DNA of 36,293 nucleotides, from assembly GCA_029824475.1 (NCBI GenBank), contig JALGYA010000002.1, positions 1-36,293 of the forward strand. The letters run 5' to 3'. This document shows positions 13,388 to 33,951 of the stretch, in pieces. The first letter of the stretch is position 1. Every line of letters begins with the position of its first letter. The notes under the pieces are model-generated. The model did no database searches and was not told the DNA's origin. It saw only the letters and a program-made list of their open reading frames with translations. This DNA comes from Fimbriimonadia bacterium (GTDB lineage: Bacteria; Armatimonadota; Fimbriimonadia; Fimbriimonadales; Fimbriimonadaceae). The translations under genes were made by a program, and so were the position numbers.

Positions 13388-14513
13388 GTTTAAGGGCTGT
13401 GCTAGGAAGAGGGTGAGTGTCTGAGAATGTCCTCATCTGCTCCCAAGGCTCTATGGTCACTCTCGACTCATCGTAAGTGCCGTCAGCCTTCAATACACCC
13501 CACTCATCCAGCTTGAGGTGCCTCGCGAGGAAAGGATAAGCGGCCTGCCGTTTGCTCGGGCCGTAATCGTGCTTCTCGTCACCGAAGTGTGCGTAGTTCA
13601 CAAGATGCGGTTTGCCGTAGGCGAGGTACACCTCAGAAATATACGGGTACTCAACATGCGGCGTGTTCTTCGTCCAGTCATCTCCGTCGGAGATGATCAG
13701 CTGGGGCCGCGGCGCAGCCAAGGCTGCGATCTCTACATTGCTGGTCTTGTGCTCATCGGTTGAGTGGATCGGGCGTCCGCTTTCGCAAATGCACCCACCG
13801 AAGAAGTGGGCTGAGACTTGAACCGTTGGCACGGTCACGGCAACTCTGTCATCTACTGCCGCGAGCATAAAGGACTGTGTTCCTCCCCCGGAAGCACCCG
13901 TTACTGCAATTCGGTCCGCATCAACGTCTGGCAGTGCAGTCAAGTAGTCGACAATCCTCATGCTCGACCAGAGTTGGAGGGGCATCGACTGAATCTGCTT
14001 ATGCTCCCATCCCAGCAGCCCGGAGTCTCCAAAACCGACCATGTCGTATGAGAAGACAACTGCGCCCATCTGGGCCAGCACCGCGCAGCGTGTTTGGTTG
14101 GCAGGCCGGAATCTTCCGCCACCATTTGGTTGATAACCATGCCCGTGTGGGCAGAGAATGCCCGCGTACGGCCCTTCCTTGCCGACAGGGCGATAGAGGC
14201 TGCCGATCACGTGATAGCCAGGCAGGGCTTCCAGTGCAATCGACTCGACAGAGTAGCCGTCATAGACCCGCTTGGAGTGAATGATCGGCTTGAGCGGCGT
14301 GCGCATCGGGAGAGGACTGAGGCCGGCACCTTCCAGCAGTTTCCGTTTCAGAAGGGAGGCACGCTCTTCCCACTCCGCCTCGTTCGACCAGAGGGTGCGG
14401 AAGTGACCGAGTTCAGCCACAGCTGCCTCCTCTGTGTGGAAATAGCCTTGCCGCAGTTGAGCCGCAGGATCCTGCGTATCAGCAAGTGCTGCAGAAATCA
14501 AGGCCATGAGCAT
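13356..14513 (-). CDS. Exported alpha/beta hydrolase, acetyl xylan esterase-like
   Basis: 385 residues. The catalytic nucleophile is Ser208 in GASGGGTQ, with His315 in GDEKHDYG and Asp276 or Asp278 in ISDGDDW completing the triad. The oxyanion region is ILCPHGHG. The fold and motifs fit the esterase/dienelactone-hydrolase-like proteins often annotated as acetyl xylan esterases. The substrate is unknown. The N-terminus is a short hydrophobic stretch ending in ALA, consistent with a signal peptide, although its basic end is missing; ATGs at 14513 and 14507 are both possible. TATCCT lies 6 nt before the first ATG. The 3' end lies within the sucC terminator. Confidence 0.82.
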   Translation of the reverse strand: MLMALISAALADTQDPAAQLRQGYFHTEEAAVAELGHFRTLWSNEAEWEERASLLKRKLLEGAGLSPLPMRTPLKPIIHSKRVYDGYSVESIALEALPGYHVIGSLYRPVGKEGPYAGILCPHGHGYQPNGGGRFRPANQTRCAVLAQMGAVVFSYDMVGFGDSGLLGWEHKQIQSMPLQLWSSMRIVDYLTALPDVDADRIAVTGASGGGTQSFMLAAVDDRVAVTVPTVQVSAHFFGGCICESGRPIHSTDEHKTSNVEIAALAAPRPQLIISDGDDWTKNTPHVEYPYISEVYLAYGKPHLVNYAHFGDEKHDYGPSKRQAAYPFLARHLKLDEWGVLKADGTYDESRVTIEPWEQMRTFSDTHPLPSTALKPNSLVPIPRN

Positions 14514-14519
14514 GGCCTT

Positions 14520-14525
14520 AGGATA
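14520..14525 (-). promoter_or_regulatory. Predicted -10 element of the hydrolase gene
   Basis: TATCCT on the minus strand, 6 nt before the ATG at 14513 or 12 nt before the ATG at 14507. It is the same hexamer as before hisI and the DUF1549/DUF1553 gene. It overlaps the end of the gap after the GNAT gene, which stops at 14537. Confidence 0.35.
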
Positions 14526-22484: not shown

Positions 22485-22543
22485 CGGGCCGGCAGTCTCA
22501 TCTGAGTTGCGGAGCAGATTGGACGAGCCCTGGCCTTTTGAAG

Positions 22544-22575
22544 CCCCTTCCTCCTCGTTTGAGAGGAGGAAGGGG
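22544..22575. repeat. REP-like palindrome, unit 1
   Basis: CCCCTTCCTCCTC (22544-22556) pairs perfectly with GAGGAGGAAGGGG (22563-22575) around a 6-nt loop. The flank GGTTGGGGGATGGAGG reads, on the other strand, as the C-rich lead of the repeat family. Confidence 0.75.
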
Positions 22576-22613
22576 GTTGGGGGATGGAGGTTTCTCGGGA
22601 TTGGAGATTGGTC

Positions 22614-22637
22614 CCTCTCCCTCGAACGAGGGGGAGG
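22614..22637. repeat. REP-like palindrome, unit 2
   Basis: CCTCTCCCTCG (22614-22624) pairs with CGAGGGGGAGG (22627-22637) with one G-T wobble. On the minus strand it is preceded by CCTAACCTCCCCC and followed by ACCAATC, matching unit 5 at 23036-23060 in reverse orientation. Confidence 0.75.
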
Positions 22638-22727
22638 TTAGGAGGGGGACAGATAAGTCTTGAGTTCTTGAATCCTGACCTTGGCTCCCTCTAGTTTTCA
22701 TGAGGGTCAAGTTGACGCTCGAGCAAG

Positions 22728-22895
22728 GCCCCCTCTCTTAATCTCCCCCTCTCCCGTTGGTCGAAAGGGAGAGGCCAGAACCAAGAACCTCCTCACCCTA
22801 GCCCTCTCCTCCTCTCGAACGAGGAGGAGAGGGAACCGCAACGTTGAATTCTGGCCTCTCCCCCGGCTTGGGGCGGGGGAGATTAGAGAGGGAGG
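22728..22895. repeat. Compound inverted repeat of two REP-like units around a third hairpin
   Basis: The left unit (CCTCTCTTAATCTCCCCC, then stem CCTCTCCC 22748-22755 with GGGAGAGG 22767-22774, then CCAGAA) and the right unit (TTCTGG, stem TCTCCCCC 22857-22864 with GGGGGAGA 22875-22882, then GATTAGAGAGG) face each other as an imperfect inverted pair. Between them sits a perfect 13-bp hairpin, CCCTCTCCTCCTC (22802-22814) with GAGGAGGAGAGGG (22821-22833). The whole could fold as one long branched structure. Confidence 0.75.
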
Positions 22896-23035
22896 GTCCG
22901 CCAAAGAGGGCTGCCATAAGCAGCGCTCGACGTGGAAGGCGACCGAAAGGAGCGGTCTTTGCGTTAGCCTGAGACTGATGGTCTGCAGCTGGCGCTCCCG
23001 TCAGCTGTTCCGGCCGAAGGCCGGCCCCATCCTAG

Positions 23036-23060
23036 CCTCCCCCACCCTTCGTGGGGGAGG
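23036..23060. repeat. REP-like palindrome, unit 5
   Basis: CCTCCCCCAC (23036-23045) pairs perfectly with GTGGGGGAGG (23051-23060). It is preceded by ATCCTAG and followed by ACCAATCCAAGAACTCC, the same flanks as in unit 2 and in the left half of the compound repeat. Confidence 0.75.
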
Positions 23061-23084
23061 GACCAATCCAAGAACTCCAGGCAC

Positions 23085-23120
23085 AAAAAAGCGGTGCAGA
23101 CACGAATGCCTGCACCGCTT
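23085..23120 (-). terminator. Rho-independent terminator of the ATP synthase operon
   Basis: AAGCGGTGCAG (23089-23099) pairs with CTGCACCGCTT (23110-23120). On the minus strand it is followed by a run of T (A23085-A23090 on the plus strand). It lies 10 nt after the atpG stop, proving that the operon ends there, before any beta or epsilon gene. Confidence 0.93.
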
Positions 23121-23130
23121 GATTTTGAAC

Positions 23131-27131: not shown

Positions 27132-27887
27132 TTATGGAGCTGCTGCGAGCTCAGGATCGTGTGAGTGATCCTCTTCGTGGTGTGTGACCAAGGACAGGTA
27201 CACGCAGGTCAGCAGGCAGAAGATGAGAGCCTGAACTATGACCGTAAGCACCTTGATGGGCATGAGGAACATCCCGATGGGGACGTAGAAGTCCGCACCG
27301 AGCGCGTTCATCGCCTCAACAGCCTGGTGGCCGCCATCGATGTTTCCGAAGAGCCTGAGCGAGAGTGAGAGGTTCTTCATCACCTCTGAAATGATCTCGA
27401 TCAGGAAGATAAGCGGAGTTACAAAGATCGCTAGAACTATGGGGAGGCTTGGTCCCGCAAAGTGCTTGAAGTGGCCTCCGGCTCCGTTCGCCTTCATCCC
27501 TTCCCACTGGACATAGCCGATGGAGATCAGCGCCATGCCGAGATTGAAGCTGAGATCTGCTGTTGGTGAGGTGGAAAAGAAGAGTGCGGTTGCGTTGCCA
27601 AAGAAGATGATCAGCCAAAACGTCAAGATCATTGGCACGTACTTGCGGCCGTGCGATCCGATGATGCCAACGCAGAGATTCTCGATGAAGAGGTAGAGCT
27701 GTTCAAAGCGTTGGGTGAATGGGTTCTTGAAGACTCGCTCACCCATGCCCTTCTTAGCCTGGCCAAGGAAGAGGAAGATCGCGAGCACGATCAGGGCCAC
27801 ATAGATCATCAGGCCGATGAAGGAGGGGCCATGATGGCCGTCGCTGGCAGCGACTAGCGTGATTGCAGACTTCCCGATGAACTCCAT
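27132..27887 (-). CDS. atpB: ATP synthase F0 subunit a
   Basis: 251 residues, about six hydrophobic segments. Subunit a forms the proton half-channels facing the c ring. The essential Arg178 lies in SLSLRLFGNI, preceded by the conserved IEIISEVMKNL with Glu164 or Glu168. An N-terminal segment after about residue 22 (FIGLMIYVALIVLAIFLFLG) is the first membrane helix. The C-terminus has a His-rich, acidic tail (THHEEDHSHDPEL), perhaps a surface feature. It begins 9 nt downstream of atpI. Confidence 0.97.
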   Translation of the reverse strand: MEFIGKSAITLVAASDGHHGPSFIGLMIYVALIVLAIFLFLGQAKKGMGERVFKNPFTQRFEQLYLFIENLCVGIIGSHGRKYVPMILTFWLIIFFGNATALFFSTSPTADLSFNLGMALISIGYVQWEGMKANGAGGHFKHFAGPSLPIVLAIFVTPLIFLIEIISEVMKNLSLSLRLFGNIDGGHQAVEAMNALGADFYVPIGMFLMPIKVLTVIVQALIFCLLTCVYLSLVTHHEEDHSHDPELAAAP

Positions 27888-27896
27888 TGGCGCTCT

Positions 27897-28259
27897 TTAA
27901 TCGGCCTTATTGGAATGCACACTCCAACCGACCAGCGCGCAGTATACCAACGCCAATCCGGCCAAAAAGAATCCTGGGCCGAGTGGTCCCAAACGTTGGG
28001 CCAGAAGCCATCCGCCATAGATCAAAGGGAGCTTGAAGAGGACCGCACCGAAGATCAGCAAGGGGTGCGGAGGCTTGTGCCCGTCGCCTCCATAGCCTGC
28101 GCCGATGGTTCTCACCAGGAGCCAGGAACAATAGAGGTATCCGCTGGTCCCTGCTGCGCCCATCAATGATGAGACTGCTGGCTGCCATCCGCCCGTGATC
28201 AGTGCCCCCAGTGCAAGGGCAGCCACTGCCGCTATGAAAGTGTTGACAAGCGCATTCAT
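27897..28259 (-). CDS. AtpI-like ATP synthase assembly protein
   Basis: 120 residues with four hydrophobic segments (about 5-23, 27-50, 67-87 and 94-113), as in AtpI, a membrane protein encoded ahead of subunit a that helps c-ring assembly or magnesium supply. Sequence similarity in this family is weak, so the call rests on topology, size and position. It starts in an ATGA overlap with atpZ, and atpB follows 9 nt later. Confidence 0.7.
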   Translation of the reverse strand: MNALVNTFIAAVAALALGALITGGWQPAVSSLMGAAGTSGYLYCSWLLVRTIGAGYGGDGHKPPHPLLIFGAVLFKLPLIYGGWLLAQRLGPLGPGFFLAGLALVYCALVGWSVHSNKAD

Positions 28260-28666
28260 GATCGTTTGGAGAGTCGCACCGTGTAGAGGACCGCAACGGA
28301 CGCGCCGACGAGTAGGCCAAGCGCCTGCCCAAGGGCCTCCACCCCGAGCCGACTGCCGATGAACCAGCCGCCTGCTAAACCTGCCATCGGCATCCAGAGG
28401 ATTGCAAAAGCGATCGACATGCCAGAGCCTGTTGGCCCACCGCCGCCGTGGGATGGCCCGCCTCGCTGTTCTTCGATCGTCCCCTCGCTTCTGGCTTTAG
28501 CTTTGCGAATGCGCTCTTTGGCATCTGACAGCTTTGCCTCAAGGTCACTCGGATCAGGCGGAGCAGCAAACTCCACGTCTGCTGCCGCCTTAACCTTCTC
28601 CTGAAGCTCCTTCAATCGGGCCTCTTCCTGATTTTCTGGCTCCGGCGGAGCCGCTTCATCCGGCAT
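28256..28666 (-). CDS. AtpZ/AtpI-type ATP synthase accessory protein
   Basis: 136 residues. The N-terminal half is charged and probably helical (EEARLKELQEKVKAAADVEF; KLSDAKERIRKAKARSE), then a Gly-rich hinge (GGGGPTGSG) and a C-terminal pair of transmembrane helices (SIAFAILWMPMAGLAGGWFIG; ALGLLVGASVAVLYTV), the arrangement of AtpZ-type proteins at the head of many atp operons. The long soluble N-terminal part is more than the minimal family has. It is the first gene of the operon; its ATG is only 21 bp from the divergent recG ATG. Confidence 0.72.
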   Translation of the reverse strand: MPDEAAPPEPENQEEARLKELQEKVKAAADVEFAAPPDPSDLEAKLSDAKERIRKAKARSEGTIEEQRGGPSHGGGGPTGSGMSIAFAILWMPMAGLAGGWFIGSRLGVEALGQALGLLVGASVAVLYTVRLSKRS

Positions 28667-28674
28667 GATTCGAG

Positions 28675-28681
28675 TAGATTA
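28675..28681. promoter_or_regulatory. Overlapping divergent -10 elements for recG and atpZ
   Basis: TAGATTA reads as TAGATT on the plus strand (28675-28680), 7 nt before the recG ATG at 28688, and as TAATCT on the minus strand (28676-28681), 9 nt before the atpZ ATG at 28666. The whole intergenic gap is 21 bp, so both -35 regions, if any, lie in the opposite gene. Confidence 0.5.
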
Positions 28682-28687
28682 AAGCAG

Positions 28688-30835
28688 ATGGCAGAGGGAG
28701 CCCGGAAGGACGGTCTAAGCACAGACGTCCAGTATCTCAAAGGTGTCGGCCCCCGAGCGGCCATGCATTTGCGCAAACTTGGGCTGGAAACAGCCGAAGA
28801 TGTCCTCTGGCATTTCCCCCGGCGCATGGAGGACAGATCCAACCTTCCGCCCATCATGATGTGTCGCCCCGGCTATCCAGCCACCGTCCGCGGCAGGCTC
28901 ACAGGCGTCAACACTCGCCCTCTTCGTGGCGGAAAAGTTCTGCTCCGAGCGACAGTTGATGACGGGACCGGCGTCATCGACCTCATCTGGTTCAACCAGC
29001 CCTGGGTGGCACGCGACCTCAACAAAGTAACCGGGGAGATCATCGCCTACGGAATGGTCAAAGAGGGCCGCCGAGGCCTCGAGATGAGCAGCGCCGAGTG
29101 GGAGGCGATCGACGAAGACGACGAGGCAGAGGACTTCGCGCGCATCGTTCCGGTCTATCCGCTTAAAGAAGGTGTCCCTCAATGGGCAGTCCGCAAGGCG
29201 GCTCACAGTGCGGTCGAATACTTCGCCTCCCAGGTCAAGGATCCGCTCCCTGACTCCATAAGAAAGAAGTGGAAGCTGCCCCAGCTCTCCTGGTGCCTGC
29301 GGCAGATGCACTTGCCCGATTCGGAAGATGACCGGGCCAGGGCTCGCGAGCGGCTAGTTTTTGAGGAATTCTTGTATCTCCAGCTCGCGCTGCAGATGCT
29401 GCGCAGTGAGACCAAGCACGAGATCGGCATCGCTTTTCCGCTGGATGATCTGCCGGATGCTGGATCGACTCCCTCCAGTCTTTTCGGTGATGACGCAGAG
29501 CAGGCAGGAAGCCTTGAGGACCAAGTCCACAAGATGCTCCCGTTCGATCTGACCGGCGCGCAGAAGCGCGTCATCGACGAGATTTGGTCCGACATGAAGA
29601 TGCCCGCCCCGATGAATCGCCTGGTCCAAGGCGATGTCGGCTCAGGCAAGACGGCTGTCGCCGCTTGCGCAATCCTCGGTGCTGTTCGGTGCGGTTACCA
29701 AGCTGCGCTGATGGCCCCCACAGAAATCCTTGCAGAACAGCATGCGATGGGGCTGCGTCAACTTTTCGAGCCGCTGGGAATAGAAGTGTCGCTCCTCGTC
29801 GGCAAACAGACAGCCGCACAAAAACGCAAAGCCCTCCAAGCAGCTGCCAGCGGCGAAGCACGGCTCTGCATCGGCACGCACGCCCTTATTCAAGAGGGTG
29901 TGGAGTTCCAGAACCTCGGCCTGGTTGTCATCGATGAGCAGCACAGGTTTGGTGTCATGCAAAGGGCCGCTTTACGGGCCAAAAGCGATCAGCACCCTGA
30001 CGTGCTCGTCATGACTGCCACACCGATCCCCCGCACGCTCACGATGACGTTTTACGGTGATCTGGATCTGAGTGTCATCGACGAGATGCCTCCCGGCAGA
30101 AAGCCGATCAAGACTCATTGGAAGCGCCCTAACCAGCGAGACCAGGTGTACGACACCGTCCGAAGCCTCATTAAAGAGGGAAGGCAGGCGTACTTCGTCT
30201 GCCCGATGATCTCCGAGTCAGAGAAGATGCAGGCGCAGGCTGCTGAGGACCTCTACTACCGGCTCAAAGAGGGCGTCTACAAGGATTTGCGCCTCGGGCT
30301 TCTGCACGGCCAGATGAAGGGCGTCGAGAAGGATGAAGTGATGACCCAGTTCCGGAATCACGAGCTCGACATCCTCGTCAGCACCGTTGTGATTGAAGTC
30401 GGTGTGGATGTCTCAAATGCGAGCGTGATGGTTGTTGAAGATGCCTTCCGGTTTGGCCTCTCCCAACTGCATCAGCTGAGGGGCCGCGTTGGACGAGGCG
30501 ATGACCAGTCCTTCTGCATCCTTATTTCGGAAGCCAAGACACCAGACGCCGATCAGCGCCTCTCAATCATGGCCCGCACGTCAGATGGGTTCGAGATCGC
30601 CGAAGAAGACCTCAAGCTAAGAGGCGCGGGCGACATTGCCGGCACTCGCCAGAGTGGCAGAGGAGATTTCCGGCTGGCTGACCTGATCAAAGACGGCGTC
30701 CTACTCGAACGAGCCCGCCAAGCGGCGATGGAGATCATAGAGGCAGACCCCAAACTAGAAAAAGCCGGAAGCGACGAACTCGTGGCAGCCGTTAAGTCAC
30801 GGCGCAGCGATATGGCACTCGCCACGGTCAGCTGA
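28688..30835 (+). CDS. recG: ATP-dependent DNA helicase RecG
   Basis: 715 residues, usual for RecG, which reverses stalled replication forks and branch-migrates Holliday junctions. An N-terminal helical part with VQYLKGVGPRAAMHLRKLGL leads into the wedge (OB-fold) domain at about 60-165. The motor has Walker A GDVGSGKT at 315-322, a DEQH box at 416-419, the motif [19 protein letters not shown], and the RGRVGRG motif near the end. It is divergent from the atp operon and is followed by a rhodanese gene after 18 nt. Like mfd in this window, it is a translocase that handles stalled machinery on DNA; their closeness is probably chance. Confidence 0.97.
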   Translation: MAEGARKDGLSTDVQYLKGVGPRAAMHLRKLGLETAEDVLWHFPRRMEDRSNLPPIMMCRPGYPATVRGRLTGVNTRPLRGGKVLLRATVDDGTGVIDLIWFNQPWVARDLNKVTGEIIAYGMVKEGRRGLEMSSAEWEAIDEDDEAEDFARIVPVYPLKEGVPQWAVRKAAHSAVEYFASQVKDPLPDSIRKKWKLPQLSWCLRQMHLPDSEDDRARARERLVFEEFLYLQLALQMLRSETKHEIGIAFPLDDLPDAGSTPSSLFGDDAEQAGSLEDQVHKMLPFDLTGAQKRVIDEIWSDMKMPAPMNRLVQGDVGSGKTAVAACAILGAVRCGYQAALMAPTEILAEQHAMGLRQLFEPLGIEVSLLVGKQTAAQKRKALQAAASGEARLCIGTHALIQEGVEFQNLGLVVIDEQHRFGVMQRAALRAKSDQHPDVLVMTATPIPRTLTMTFYGDLDLSVIDEMPPGRKPIKTHWKRPNQRDQVYDTVRSLIKEGRQAYFVCPMISESEKMQAQAAEDLYYRLKEGVYKDLRLGLLHGQMKGVEKDEVMTQFRNHELDILVSTVVIEVGVDVSNASVMVVEDAFRFGLSQLHQLRGRVGRGDDQSFCILISEAKTPDADQRLSIMARTSDGFEIAEEDLKLRGAGDIAGTRQSGRGDFRLADLIKDGVLLERARQAAMEIIEADPKLEKAGSDELVAAVKSRRSDMALATVS

Positions 30836-30840
30836 CCGGG

Positions 30841-30846
30841 TACCTT
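30841..30846 (+). promoter_or_regulatory. Predicted -10 element of the rhodanese gene
   Basis: TACCTT, exactly 7 nt before the ATG at 30854, in the 18-nt gap after recG. If active, the transcript would be leaderless and independent of recG. Confidence 0.35.
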
Positions 30847-30853
30847 CAAGACG

Positions 30854-31174
30854 ATGACACCTGAGATTTCAGTCCAAGAGCTGCGCGATGCGCTGGTGGC
30901 CAGCAAAGACCTCCTTCTCCTCGATGTTCGGGAAGAGGACGAGCTTGAAATCAGCCGCCTGGACGGAATCGTACATATCCCCATGGACGATGTCATGGAC
31001 CGGCTCGAAGAGATCGACAAGGGCGCAGACATCATCGTCGTCTGCCGCACTGGAAGGCGAAGCGAGACGATCACGGACATGCTGCTCCAGAGCGGATTCA
31101 CCCAAGTCCGCAACATGGTGGGTGGCATGAACCTGTGGGCCGATGAGATCGACCCGACAGTTCAAAAGTATTAG
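30854..31174 (+). CDS. Rhodanese-domain protein, single domain
   Basis: 106 residues, one rhodanese domain. The active loop CRTGRRS begins at Cys64, which would carry a persulfide; the basic six-residue loop is normal for sulfurtransferases such as GlpE or PspE. The N-terminal ISVQELRDAL and the DVREEDE strand-turn are family landmarks. It probably moves sulfane sulfur in the cytoplasm, since no signal peptide is present. The acceptor is unknown. Its stop overlaps the topA stop by 3 nt convergently. Confidence 0.9.
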   Translation: MTPEISVQELRDALVASKDLLLLDVREEDELEISRLDGIVHIPMDDVMDRLEEIDKGADIIVVCRTGRRSETITDMLLQSGFTQVRNMVGGMNLWADEIDPTVQKY

Positions 31175-33783
31175 CTCTTTTTGCGCCGCTTGGTAAAGCG
31201 CTTCTTGCTGGGGCCAGCAGCAATTTTCGCCTTGACCAATTCAGCAGCCTTTTCAGCTGTGACAGCCTCGGGCTCGATATCCTTCGGGATAGTCGCGTTG
31301 ACCTTGCCGTTGGTGACGTAGGGGCCATAGCGCCCGGCCATCAGCTTGACTTCGCCTTCGATCCCGTCCAGCACGCCAAACACCTTGATCGGCTCCTTGT
31401 TGGCGCGGGCTTTGGACTGCTTCAAGACTTCCATCGCCTCGTCAACCGTGACGGTCAGGGCGTGTCGCCAGTCCTTGAGGCTGCCATTCAGGTCCCCGCA
31501 TCGCAGGTACCCGCCGTATTTGCCGATGGCGGCCATGATGTCGTCGCCAGTCTCTGGGTGCTTGCCGATCGAGCGGGGGAGTGAGACGAGGTCAATGATC
31601 TCCTCTTCACTCAGGTCGCTGACTTCAGTCTTTGGCGGCATCGTAACTCGCTTCGGCTTGGTCTTTGCCTCAGTCTCTTCGGCGGTTGCTTCGAGCTCAA
31701 GGTAGGCGCCAAATCGGCCCGACTTGAGAAGAATCTTGCGGCCTGTTGCCGGGTCTGTGCCGAGAGCCTCTGGTCCCTGTGATCGCAGCTCGATCAGTTT
31801 GAGGGCGTCCTCGGCTGTCAGGTCGGCGGGTGGCATGTCATCCGGCACACTGGCCGTGTTGCCTTGACCGCCTTCGCCGCGCTGAATGAACGGGCCGTTG
31901 CGGCCGATGCGTACGGCCAAGTCTTCAGCAAGCTCAATGTTGGGATAGGGGATGTCTTTGCCCTGCTCAGCGACCTGACGGTCGATGCCAGGGACTTCAT
32001 CATGCCCTTCATAAAAGTCTTTGAGATGCTTGAGCGAATCCCGCTTGCCCTCCGCGATCTCGTCAAGCTCCTCCTCCATCTGGGCGGTGAAGCCGAGGTC
32101 CACGAGGCCGTCGAAATGGCCTTCCAGAAGATCGATGACCGCAAACGCTGTGAACGTCGGAATCAGCTCGTTCTTTCTCTTGAAGATGTAGCCGCGGTCC
32201 TGGATCGTTCCCATGATCGAGGCATAGGTGGATGGGCGGCCAACGCCTTCGGCTTCGAGCGTTCGGATCAAGGTCGCTTCCGTATAGCGTGCAGGCGGTT
32301 TTGTGGCGTGCGTGGTCGCGTCCACTTTGTTGGCCTGAAGAGTCTCGCCGACCGAAGTCTTCGGGAGGATGGTCTCCCTGTCGCCGAGCTCCGCGTCGGG
32401 TTCGTCTGAGCCCTCAACGTAGGCTCTGAGGAATCCGGGGAAGATGATCGACTTGCCGGAGGCGCCAAAAGTGAGGAGCTTGTCGGTGTCCTGGACCTGG
32501 ACTTCAACTCTGGTCCGCTCGACTCGCGCGGGCTGCATTTGGCAAGCGATGGTTCGCTTCCAGATCAATTCATACAGCTTGGCCTGGTCATCTGACAGCT
32601 GGCTTCGCGCTGCCTGAGGCAGTCTGCTCAGCTCTGTCGGTCTAATCGCCTCGTGAGCTTCCTGAGCGTTCTTCGCCTTCGACTTGAAGATGCGAGGCTT
32701 GCTCGGCAGGTAGTCGGCGCCGTACTGGGCAGCGATGACCTCGCGGGCCTGGTTCAAGGCGCGACTGGCAAGAGTCAAGCTGTCGGTTCTCATATATGTG
32801 ATGAGACCGGTGCGCTCTCCACCGACATCGATGCCTTCGTAGAGCTGCTGAGCCGTCTGCATGGTTCGCCGAGCGGTCCAGCCGAATTTTCGGTTCGCTT
32901 CCTGCTGAAGCGTGGAGGTCATGAAGGGTGCCGGCGGGTTCTCTGTCCCGGGTTTCTTGTCAACTGCGGAGACCGTCCAGGGCGTGGTCTGTTTGAGCCG
33001 GCCTGCCCAATCCTTTGCCTCGGGCTCCTTGAGCCAATAAGCAGACTTGGCCGAAAGCTGGCCTGCTGCATTGAAGCTCTGACCAGATGCAACCGCATCA
33101 GCATCGACCCGCGTCAGTTTTGCGGTGAAGGAACCATCTGCTGCCTTAAGCGCGGCCTCGATGCCTGCATAGCTGGCGACGGTGAAGTCCTTTCTTGCTC
33201 TTTCTCGCTGTACAACGAGGCGTACGGCGACACTCTGGACTCGCCCGGCACTCAGCTTTGGTGCCACTTTCTTCCAGAGAAGAGGAGAGAGCGTGTAGCC
33301 GTAGAGCCTGTCGAGAATGCGGCGCGTCTCCTGAGCCTTGACCAGATCTTCGTCGAGGTCGCGTGGATTTGCGAGGGCCTCTTCGATCGCTTCTGGAGTG
33401 ATTTCGTGGAAGACGATGCGCTGGATGACGGTCGATTTCTTCGGCTTGAGGAGCTGCAGAATGTGCCAGGAGATCGATTCGCCTTCGCGATCTTCGTCAG
33501 TTGCGAGCAGGATCTTGTCCGCACCTTTAGCGGCGGCGCGAAGCGCTGCCACGTGCCGGCTCTTGTCAGAGCTGACCACATAGATCGGTTCGTAATCGGC
33601 TGTGACGTTGACGCCGAGTCGGGCCCATTTCTCCTTGCGGATGGCCTCAGGAATCTGATCGCTCTTTTCCGGGAGGTCCCGGACATGGCCATAGCTGGCC
33701 AGCACTTCGCAGCTGCTGTCCAAGAACCTGCTGATTGTCTTTGCTTTCGCAGGTGACTCGACTATGACAAGCGTCTTCCCCAT
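31171..33783 (-). CDS. topA: DNA topoisomerase I
   Basis: 870 residues from the ATG at 33783, the standard start MGKTLVIVESPAKAKTI. It relaxes negative supercoils by cutting one strand. The Toprim acidic cluster is TDEDREGES and the catalytic Tyr330 lies in GLITYMRTDS. After about residue 600 there are several Toprim-C-type repeats (GRFGAYLEL, GKYGGYLRC, GRYGPYVTN) and a lysine/arginine-rich tail (KKRFTKRRKKS). No zinc-finger cysteine motifs are visible, so the enzyme resembles the actinobacterial and cyanobacterial type. A 48-residue in-frame extension up to 33927 lacks family similarity and is rejected. It is divergent from the transglutaminase-like gene. Confidence 0.96.
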   Translation of the reverse strand: MGKTLVIVESPAKAKTISRFLDSSCEVLASYGHVRDLPEKSDQIPEAIRKEKWARLGVNVTADYEPIYVVSSDKSRHVAALRAAAKGADKILLATDEDREGESISWHILQLLKPKKSTVIQRIVFHEITPEAIEEALANPRDLDEDLVKAQETRRILDRLYGYTLSPLLWKKVAPKLSAGRVQSVAVRLVVQRERARKDFTVASYAGIEAALKAADGSFTAKLTRVDADAVASGQSFNAAGQLSAKSAYWLKEPEAKDWAGRLKQTTPWTVSAVDKKPGTENPPAPFMTSTLQQEANRKFGWTARRTMQTAQQLYEGIDVGGERTGLITYMRTDSLTLASRALNQAREVIAAQYGADYLPSKPRIFKSKAKNAQEAHEAIRPTELSRLPQAARSQLSDDQAKLYELIWKRTIACQMQPARVERTRVEVQVQDTDKLLTFGASGKSIIFPGFLRAYVEGSDEPDAELGDRETILPKTSVGETLQANKVDATTHATKPPARYTEATLIRTLEAEGVGRPSTYASIMGTIQDRGYIFKRKNELIPTFTAFAVIDLLEGHFDGLVDLGFTAQMEEELDEIAEGKRDSLKHLKDFYEGHDEVPGIDRQVAEQGKDIPYPNIELAEDLAVRIGRNGPFIQRGEGGQGNTASVPDDMPPADLTAEDALKLIELRSQGPEALGTDPATGRKILLKSGRFGAYLELEATAEETEAKTKPKRVTMPPKTEVSDLSEEEIIDLVSLPRSIGKHPETGDDIMAAIGKYGGYLRCGDLNGSLKDWRHALTVTVDEAMEVLKQSKARANKEPIKVFGVLDGIEGEVKLMAGRYGPYVTNGKVNATIPKDIEPEAVTAEKAAELVKAKIAAGPSKKRFTKRRKKS

Positions 33784-33951
33784 GGTAAATGGCCGGCGAA
33801 CTCCTCGCCGCGGGAGATTCTTCCAGGTATCCAGACGGACCACTCGGGCCCCAATAGGTCCATCCGAAAAGCCGAAAGGCGAGAATCGCTGAAACATTGA
33901 GACTGCTGGAAGAGTCAGAAAGTTCATCAGGGAGAATCAACCTTCGGTTAA

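Follow-up and report, generated by a model that had tools for sequence, protein, structure and literature searches.

A probable bidirectional, leaderless core promoter between recG and the ATP synthase operon in a Fimbriimonadia bacterium

The recG gene and the ATP synthase (atp) operon are divergent in an uncultured member of the class Fimbriimonadia, and the short spacer between their start codons carries a near-symmetric sequence that reads as a -10 hexamer on both strands. The anatomy of this junction, a TANNNT signal ahead of genes throughout the lineage and the conservation of the junction were observed directly. We think it probable that the spacer is a bidirectional, leaderless core promoter common to recG and the atp operon, with predicted start sites, an orientation presumably chosen by the polymerase and presumed leaderless translation.

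Genes at the recG/atp junction

The window, that is, the whole stretch of DNA that was analysed, is 36,293 bp long with ~58% GC and is one contig of the fragmented host assembly, G000. The named RecG relatives nearest to the window protein are from Armatimonadetes/Fimbriimonadales assemblies, which places the host in the Fimbriimonadia lineage. The features of the junction, as read from the window letters, the ORFs and family profiles, are as follows.

28688-28690, + strand: recG start codon ATG (window sequence)
28664-28666, - strand: start codon of the atpZ-like gene, CAT on the + strand (window sequence)
28667-28687, no strand: spacer GATTCGAGTAGATTAAAGCAG, 21 bp between the start codons (window sequence)
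28688-30835, + strand: recG, ATP-dependent DNA helicase RecG, 715 aa (ORF and family profiles)
28256-28666, - strand: atpZ-like first gene of the ATP synthase operon, 136 aa (ORF and operon position)
27897-28259, - strand: atpI-like gene, 120 aa, overlapping the end of the atpZ-like gene (operon position; ATP-synt_I only at E 0.47)
27132-27887, - strand: atpB, F0F1 ATP synthase subunit a (ORF and family profiles)
Beyond atpB down to 23131, - strand: other atp genes (ORF list)

The product of recG is certainly RecG; it matches TIGR00643 with 748.6 bits against a cutoff of 659.4, and ATG28688 is the sole ATG, GTG or TTG start possible ahead of the conserved RecG N-terminus. The first gene of the atp operon is less easily named. 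The window protein gave no family match of its own in Pfam or NCBIfam profile searches and by the curated cutoff it falls outside the AtpZ family (PF09527), while its syntenic homologues match PF09527 just under the cutoff (best 6.7e-5, 23.3 bits against 26.6). The tentative name AtpZ-like therefore rests on operon position and on this weak, sub-threshold similarity of the homologues, whose N-termini agree with the start codon assigned here. Neither recG nor the atpZ-like gene has a Shine-Dalgarno-like sequence in the 21-bp spacer.

Two other regions of the window were noted in passing. The reading frame of the topA ORF (33783-33927) is open for 48 codons upstream of the conserved MGKTLVIVESPAK start; the true start of topA is probably near 33783, and the apparent 24-bp gap to a divergent 465-aa gene would thereby be wider. 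The intergenic region 22541-23127 has several inverted repeats of 14-41 nt that are 80-100% complementary and REP-like in look.

A probable symmetric -10 element in the spacer

The original prediction was that a single 7-bp sequence serves as the -10 element of both genes and leaves their transcripts almost no leader. Its description of the junction agrees with the window letters, both in the position and distance of the two start codons and in the two hexamers and their gaps. The candidate elements and the predicted start sites are listed here.

28675-28680, + strand: recG -10 TAGATT, ending 7 nt before the ATG; 7.18 bits with the -10 matrix for leaderless genes of this lineage
28676-28681, - strand: atp operon -10 TAATCT in the reciprocal register, ending 9 nt before the ATG; 5.09 bits
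28678-28683, - strand: alternative atp -10 TTTAAT, 11 nt before the ATG; part of a GCTT(T/A)AAT element
28687-28688, + strand: recG mRNA predicted to begin at G28687 or at A28688, the first base of the ATG, with a leader of 0-1 nt; from the -10 spacing
28669, - strand: atp mRNA predicted to begin here, at an A of the minus strand, with a 3-nt leader, AUC; from the published 18-bp geometry

The sequence TAGATTA at 28675-28681 is a TANNNTA 7-mer in which the two hexamers are offset by one base. A28676 and T28680 are each the -11A for one direction and the -7T partner for the opposite one; both strands thus share an ANNNT core. Most bidirectional bacterial promoters have this TANNNTA register with reciprocally paired -11A and -7T and with starts 18 bp apart; a -18T has also been described in them, and their start spacings are 7-25 bp (PMC10268837). 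The predicted starts at 28687 for recG and 28669 for atp are likewise 18 bp apart, and this distance together with the exact register argues for sharing. Position 28669 on the + strand is a T, which is the -18T of the recG promoter, and the reciprocal atp -18 position is a C.

The matrix with which the hexamers were scored was built from genes of this lineage that are preceded by TANNNT. By this matrix TAGATT and TAATCT are each the top-scoring -10 in the 400 bp upstream of their own gene, TAATCT scoring among the weaker members of the training set. No -35 element and no extended -10 was found beside either hexamer (the best -35 had 2/6 matches), and a scan with the sigma-70 consensus found no promoter near the spacer. 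A weak TAATCT with neither of these supporting elements is odd for an ATP synthase operon and counts against sharing. With TAGATT at a gap of 7 nt and no Shine-Dalgarno sequence, recG has the make-up of a leaderless gene. For the atpZ-like gene the gap is 9 nt, with a predicted 3-nt leader, against 6-7 nt in most relatives.

These weak hexamers raise the question whether the match is due to chance, with neither being a promoter and with recG and atp transcribed from undetected promoters farther off. When the 21-mer is shuffled at constant composition an in-register TANNNTA appears in 5.3% of cases, and 0.18% of random genomic 21-mers hold one, so that the 7-mer on its own exceeds chance only modestly. 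Every TANNNT holds the palindromic core ANNNT and, therefore, a second, opposite -10 costs just one extra base. A chance match would also fit the lack of a consensus sigma-70 promoter nearby. What speaks against it is that there is no better -10 within 400 bp and, above all, that the peak of TANNNT which the genome shows 6-7 nt ahead of ATG and the conservation among genomes that keep the gene pair, both described below, place the junction well above chance. We consider this explanation improbable.

Probable leaderless genes in the lineage

Zheng 2011 (PMC3160421) gives a TANNNT motif ~12 bp before the start codon as the signature of leaderless genes, and the signal has been tested in Deinococcus (PMC12340547). 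We looked for it in 315 kb of G000 and in 400 kb of G033, a member of the same family (L064-L083 and L108-L147), with a rough ORF caller that places every start at the first ATG, and the gene counts are therefore approximate. In G000, TANNNT ends 6-7 nt before the ATG in 17 ORFs out of 210 where 1.3 were expected (13-fold, P ~7e-14); the count in G033 was 22/235 against an expected 1.5 (15-fold). At gaps 6-7 no other hexamer pattern with three fixed positions was as enriched in G000 or in G033, and the local consensus of these -10 hexamers is TAGAAT. The anti-Shine-Dalgarno table of PMC10783764 gives Fimbriimonadia a value of 25, which would fit few Shine-Dalgarno-led genes if the figure is a percentage of genes. 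By the TANNNT enrichment, leaderless genes appear to be common in Fimbriimonadia.

Other candidates are found within the window and the sampled genomes. A rhodanese-domain gene begins 18 nt past the recG stop (30835-30866) with TACCTT 7 nt before its ATG, and it may have a leaderless promoter of its own at the end of recG. Another candidate leaderless promoter, on the - strand, is a TATCCT 6 nt ahead of an ATG at 14513-14525. The recG/atp pair is not special, since the sampled genomes hold further closely spaced divergent genes that have a -10 in each direction, such as L115 7314/7332 and L147 17530/17553.

Conservation of the junction

The original prediction can be followed in relatives by asking if TAGATTA is kept. 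In G001, a genome of the same genus, the contig reads CAT-GATCGTGTAGATTTAAGCAG-ATG across the junction and retains GTAGATTtAAGCAG-ATG, which means that TAGATT and its 7-nt gap before recG are kept. The seventh base of TAGATTA, A28681 in the window, is a T in G001 while the AGATT core is retained; the atp-direction hexamer there is AAATCT, in which -11A and -7T are kept and -12T is lost. This change weakens the atp-direction hexamer in G001 and is a point against sharing. Between the window and G001, 18/20 aligned bases of the spacer are identical compared to ~69% in the flanking coding DNA (binomial P ~0.03). Six of the seven bases are thus kept within the genus; beyond it the arrangement recurs as geometry and not as the string.

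The junction was then compared in the 44 genomes, the host included, in which recG and the atp operon are divergent. The atp-direction TANNNT is present 5-12 nt before atpZ in 30 of them. The start codons are at most 30 bp apart in 22, and in these short spacers the atp-direction TANNNT is found in 15 against 3.55 expected by shuffling (P ~7e-8), the recG-direction TANNNT in 7 against 3.16 (P 0.03; 0.07 without the window) and both in 5 against 0.83 (P ~0.001; 0.007 without the window). These P values assume independent genomes, an assumption that holds only in part. In many relatives that keep the pair the start codons are 33-136 bp apart, and there the adjacent recG -10 is lost and the atp -10 is kept. 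The atp-direction element is, in short, deeply conserved and the recG-direction element is missing in most relatives; that the latter alone is only marginally enriched also counts against sharing.

These data bring up the possibility that the spacer is only a conserved leaderless atp promoter, that recG is expressed mainly from a promoter inside atpZ and that TAGATT is a by-product of symmetry. Besides the imbalance between the two directions, this explanation can draw on the palindromic core that every TANNNT has, on plus-strand TAGCTT and TAACCT (6.2 bits) inside atpZ, 184 and 91 nt upstream of recG, and on relatives with 14-15 bp spacers (L008, L009 and L030), where a reciprocal start would lie inside recG and recG must therefore use another promoter. 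In the window, however, TAGATT outscores TAATCT (7.18 against 5.09 bits) and is the hexamer that G001 retains letter for letter. In addition, recG has no Shine-Dalgarno sequence, which would more often be expected on a leadered mRNA. Weighing these, we regard a promoter for atp only as unlikely.

An overlap of the two hexamers as in the window is seen in a few other genomes. In G010 (L095), which belongs to another genus, the layout is identical, with 21 bp, TAGGGTA and gaps of 7 and 9 nt. Overlapping -10 pairs are also present in L023 (TATAGT/TAAACT) and L029 (TACCCT/TACGTT), and L024 has an overlapping pair, CATTAT/CATAAT, in the same one-base register. In a tree of RecG N-termini the window groups with L023 and L024, both of which have overlapping -10s, but in a tree of full-length RecG the genomes that bear the overlap do not group together. 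We therefore do not claim one ancestral shared bidirectional promoter; the arrangement probably arose or persisted piecemeal. A separate motif, CGTCTA, which lies 6-24 nt before recG in relatives with long spacers (L007, L014, L025, L031, L169 and L171), was considered as a promoter element and rejected because it is not enriched before genes.

Candidate hexamers for the atp operon

The sequence ATT(A/T)AAGC on the + strand, or GCTT(T/A)AAT on the - strand, is common to the window and six relatives (G001, L006, L013, L020, L027 and L089), and L006 and L013 retain ATTAAAGCAG-ATG without TAGATT. Ahead of atpZ, TTNAAT is exactly 6 nt from the start in L020, L027 and L089 and, as TTGAAT, in L028; it is -10-like, but its second base is a T where an A is usually essential. 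As a general -10 of the lineage TTNAAT was rejected, since it is not enriched before the genes of G000 or G033, and it is kept as a local alternative.

The atp hexamer of the window could accordingly be TTTAAT (28683-28678) instead of TAATCT. It would overlap TAGATT by 3 bp, with starts ~16 bp apart, which is within the spacings of 7-25 bp by which bidirectional promoters are defined. The retention of GCTT(T/A)AAT in relatives and the position of TTNAAT before atpZ in four of them favour this register, whereas the absence of the critical -11A, the lack of enrichment and a distance of 11 nt from the window start codon are against it. We take this register as a possibility of the lesser sort, and as a sub-case of sharing. 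Since TAATCT and TTTAAT both overlap the TAGATT of recG, shared -10 DNA holds with either of them; there is less certainty about the precise 7 bp.

A proposal for the shared promoter

We propose that RNA polymerase with the housekeeping sigma factor would melt one shared -10 region, 28675-28683, in either orientation. In the + orientation TAGATT would be read and the recG mRNA would begin at 28687/28688, at the AUG. In the - orientation TAATCT, or TTTAAT two bases further upstream, would be read and the atp mRNA would start at ~28669 (or 28671), 3-5 nt before the AUG. As both genes lack a Shine-Dalgarno sequence, their mRNAs would be translated by the leaderless route. The sharing itself would come about because, in this lineage, the -10 of a leaderless gene lies ~6-9 nt from its start and two such divergent genes are only 21 bp apart. 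The atp leaderless promoter would be the old, conserved part, and recG would use that core in the host genus and in a small number of others, its start codon being so near the atp promoter that the leaderless -10 of recG would fall on the same bases. As for the original prediction of one near-symmetric core for both genes with almost no leaders, the published geometry, the best -10 in 400 bp, the leaderless-rich genome and the core kept in G001 make it, in our judgement, more likely than not.

The same prediction also held that polymerase must choose between the genes, so that one could rise as the other falls. Overlapping -10 elements bar simultaneous binding and steric exclusion thus fits the geometry. 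However, in the five E. coli bidirectional promoters that have been tested, basal activity was too low for the two directions to interfere, and they did so only once one of them was strongly activated (PMC12825309). Both -10s are weak here and have no -35, which makes interference at rest unlikely, and a coupling of recG and atp is not conserved. The switch is thus unsupported and anticorrelated expression from the shared -10 is very doubtful; in the basal state each direction probably gives a modest output that depends little on the other. We found no regulator or operator at the recG/atp junction. It is equally hard to believe that back-to-back leaderless genes on one symmetric -10 are a recurrent, selected architecture in Fimbriimonadia and, at the same time, that polymerase orientation at recG/atp balances ATP synthase against a fork-repair helicase. 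A regulatory link between ATP synthase and RecG is speculation.

Comparison with known systems

Divergent gene pairs with overlapping promoters are known generally, as two operons back to back. The recG and atp operons are like these in being back to back with overlapping promoter DNA, but here the overlap lies in the -10 itself.

The junction resembles the bidirectional promoters of Warman, Grainger and colleagues (PMC10268837 and PMC12825309), with which it has in common the TANNNTA core, the reciprocal -11A/-7T, the 18 bp between predicted starts, the -18T on the recG strand and weak flanking elements. It differs in that its products would be leaderless mRNAs of recognisable genes and in that its starts are predicted. 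With the leaderless genes of Zheng 2011 (PMC3160421) and of Deinococcus (PMC12340547) it shares the motif, on the recG side the distance, and the lack of a Shine-Dalgarno sequence. Unlike in that work, as far as the part of Zheng 2011 used here goes, the phylum is Armatimonadota, which is not among its leaderless-gene groups, and the consensus is TAGAAT-like.

The junction would thus bring together symmetric -10 promoters and leaderless genes, both of them known, in a little-studied phylum. This suggests a rule that, in genomes rich in leaderless genes, two such genes that diverge across less than ~25 bp must share -10 DNA. The more useful by-product may be the computational evidence of widespread leaderless genes in Fimbriimonadia, of which we found no earlier report in the literature that we searched on leaderless genes in Armatimonadetes/Armatimonadota or Fimbriimonas. 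The recG/atp junction itself is probably an example of the known two-way kind of bacterial promoter and not a new regulatory device.
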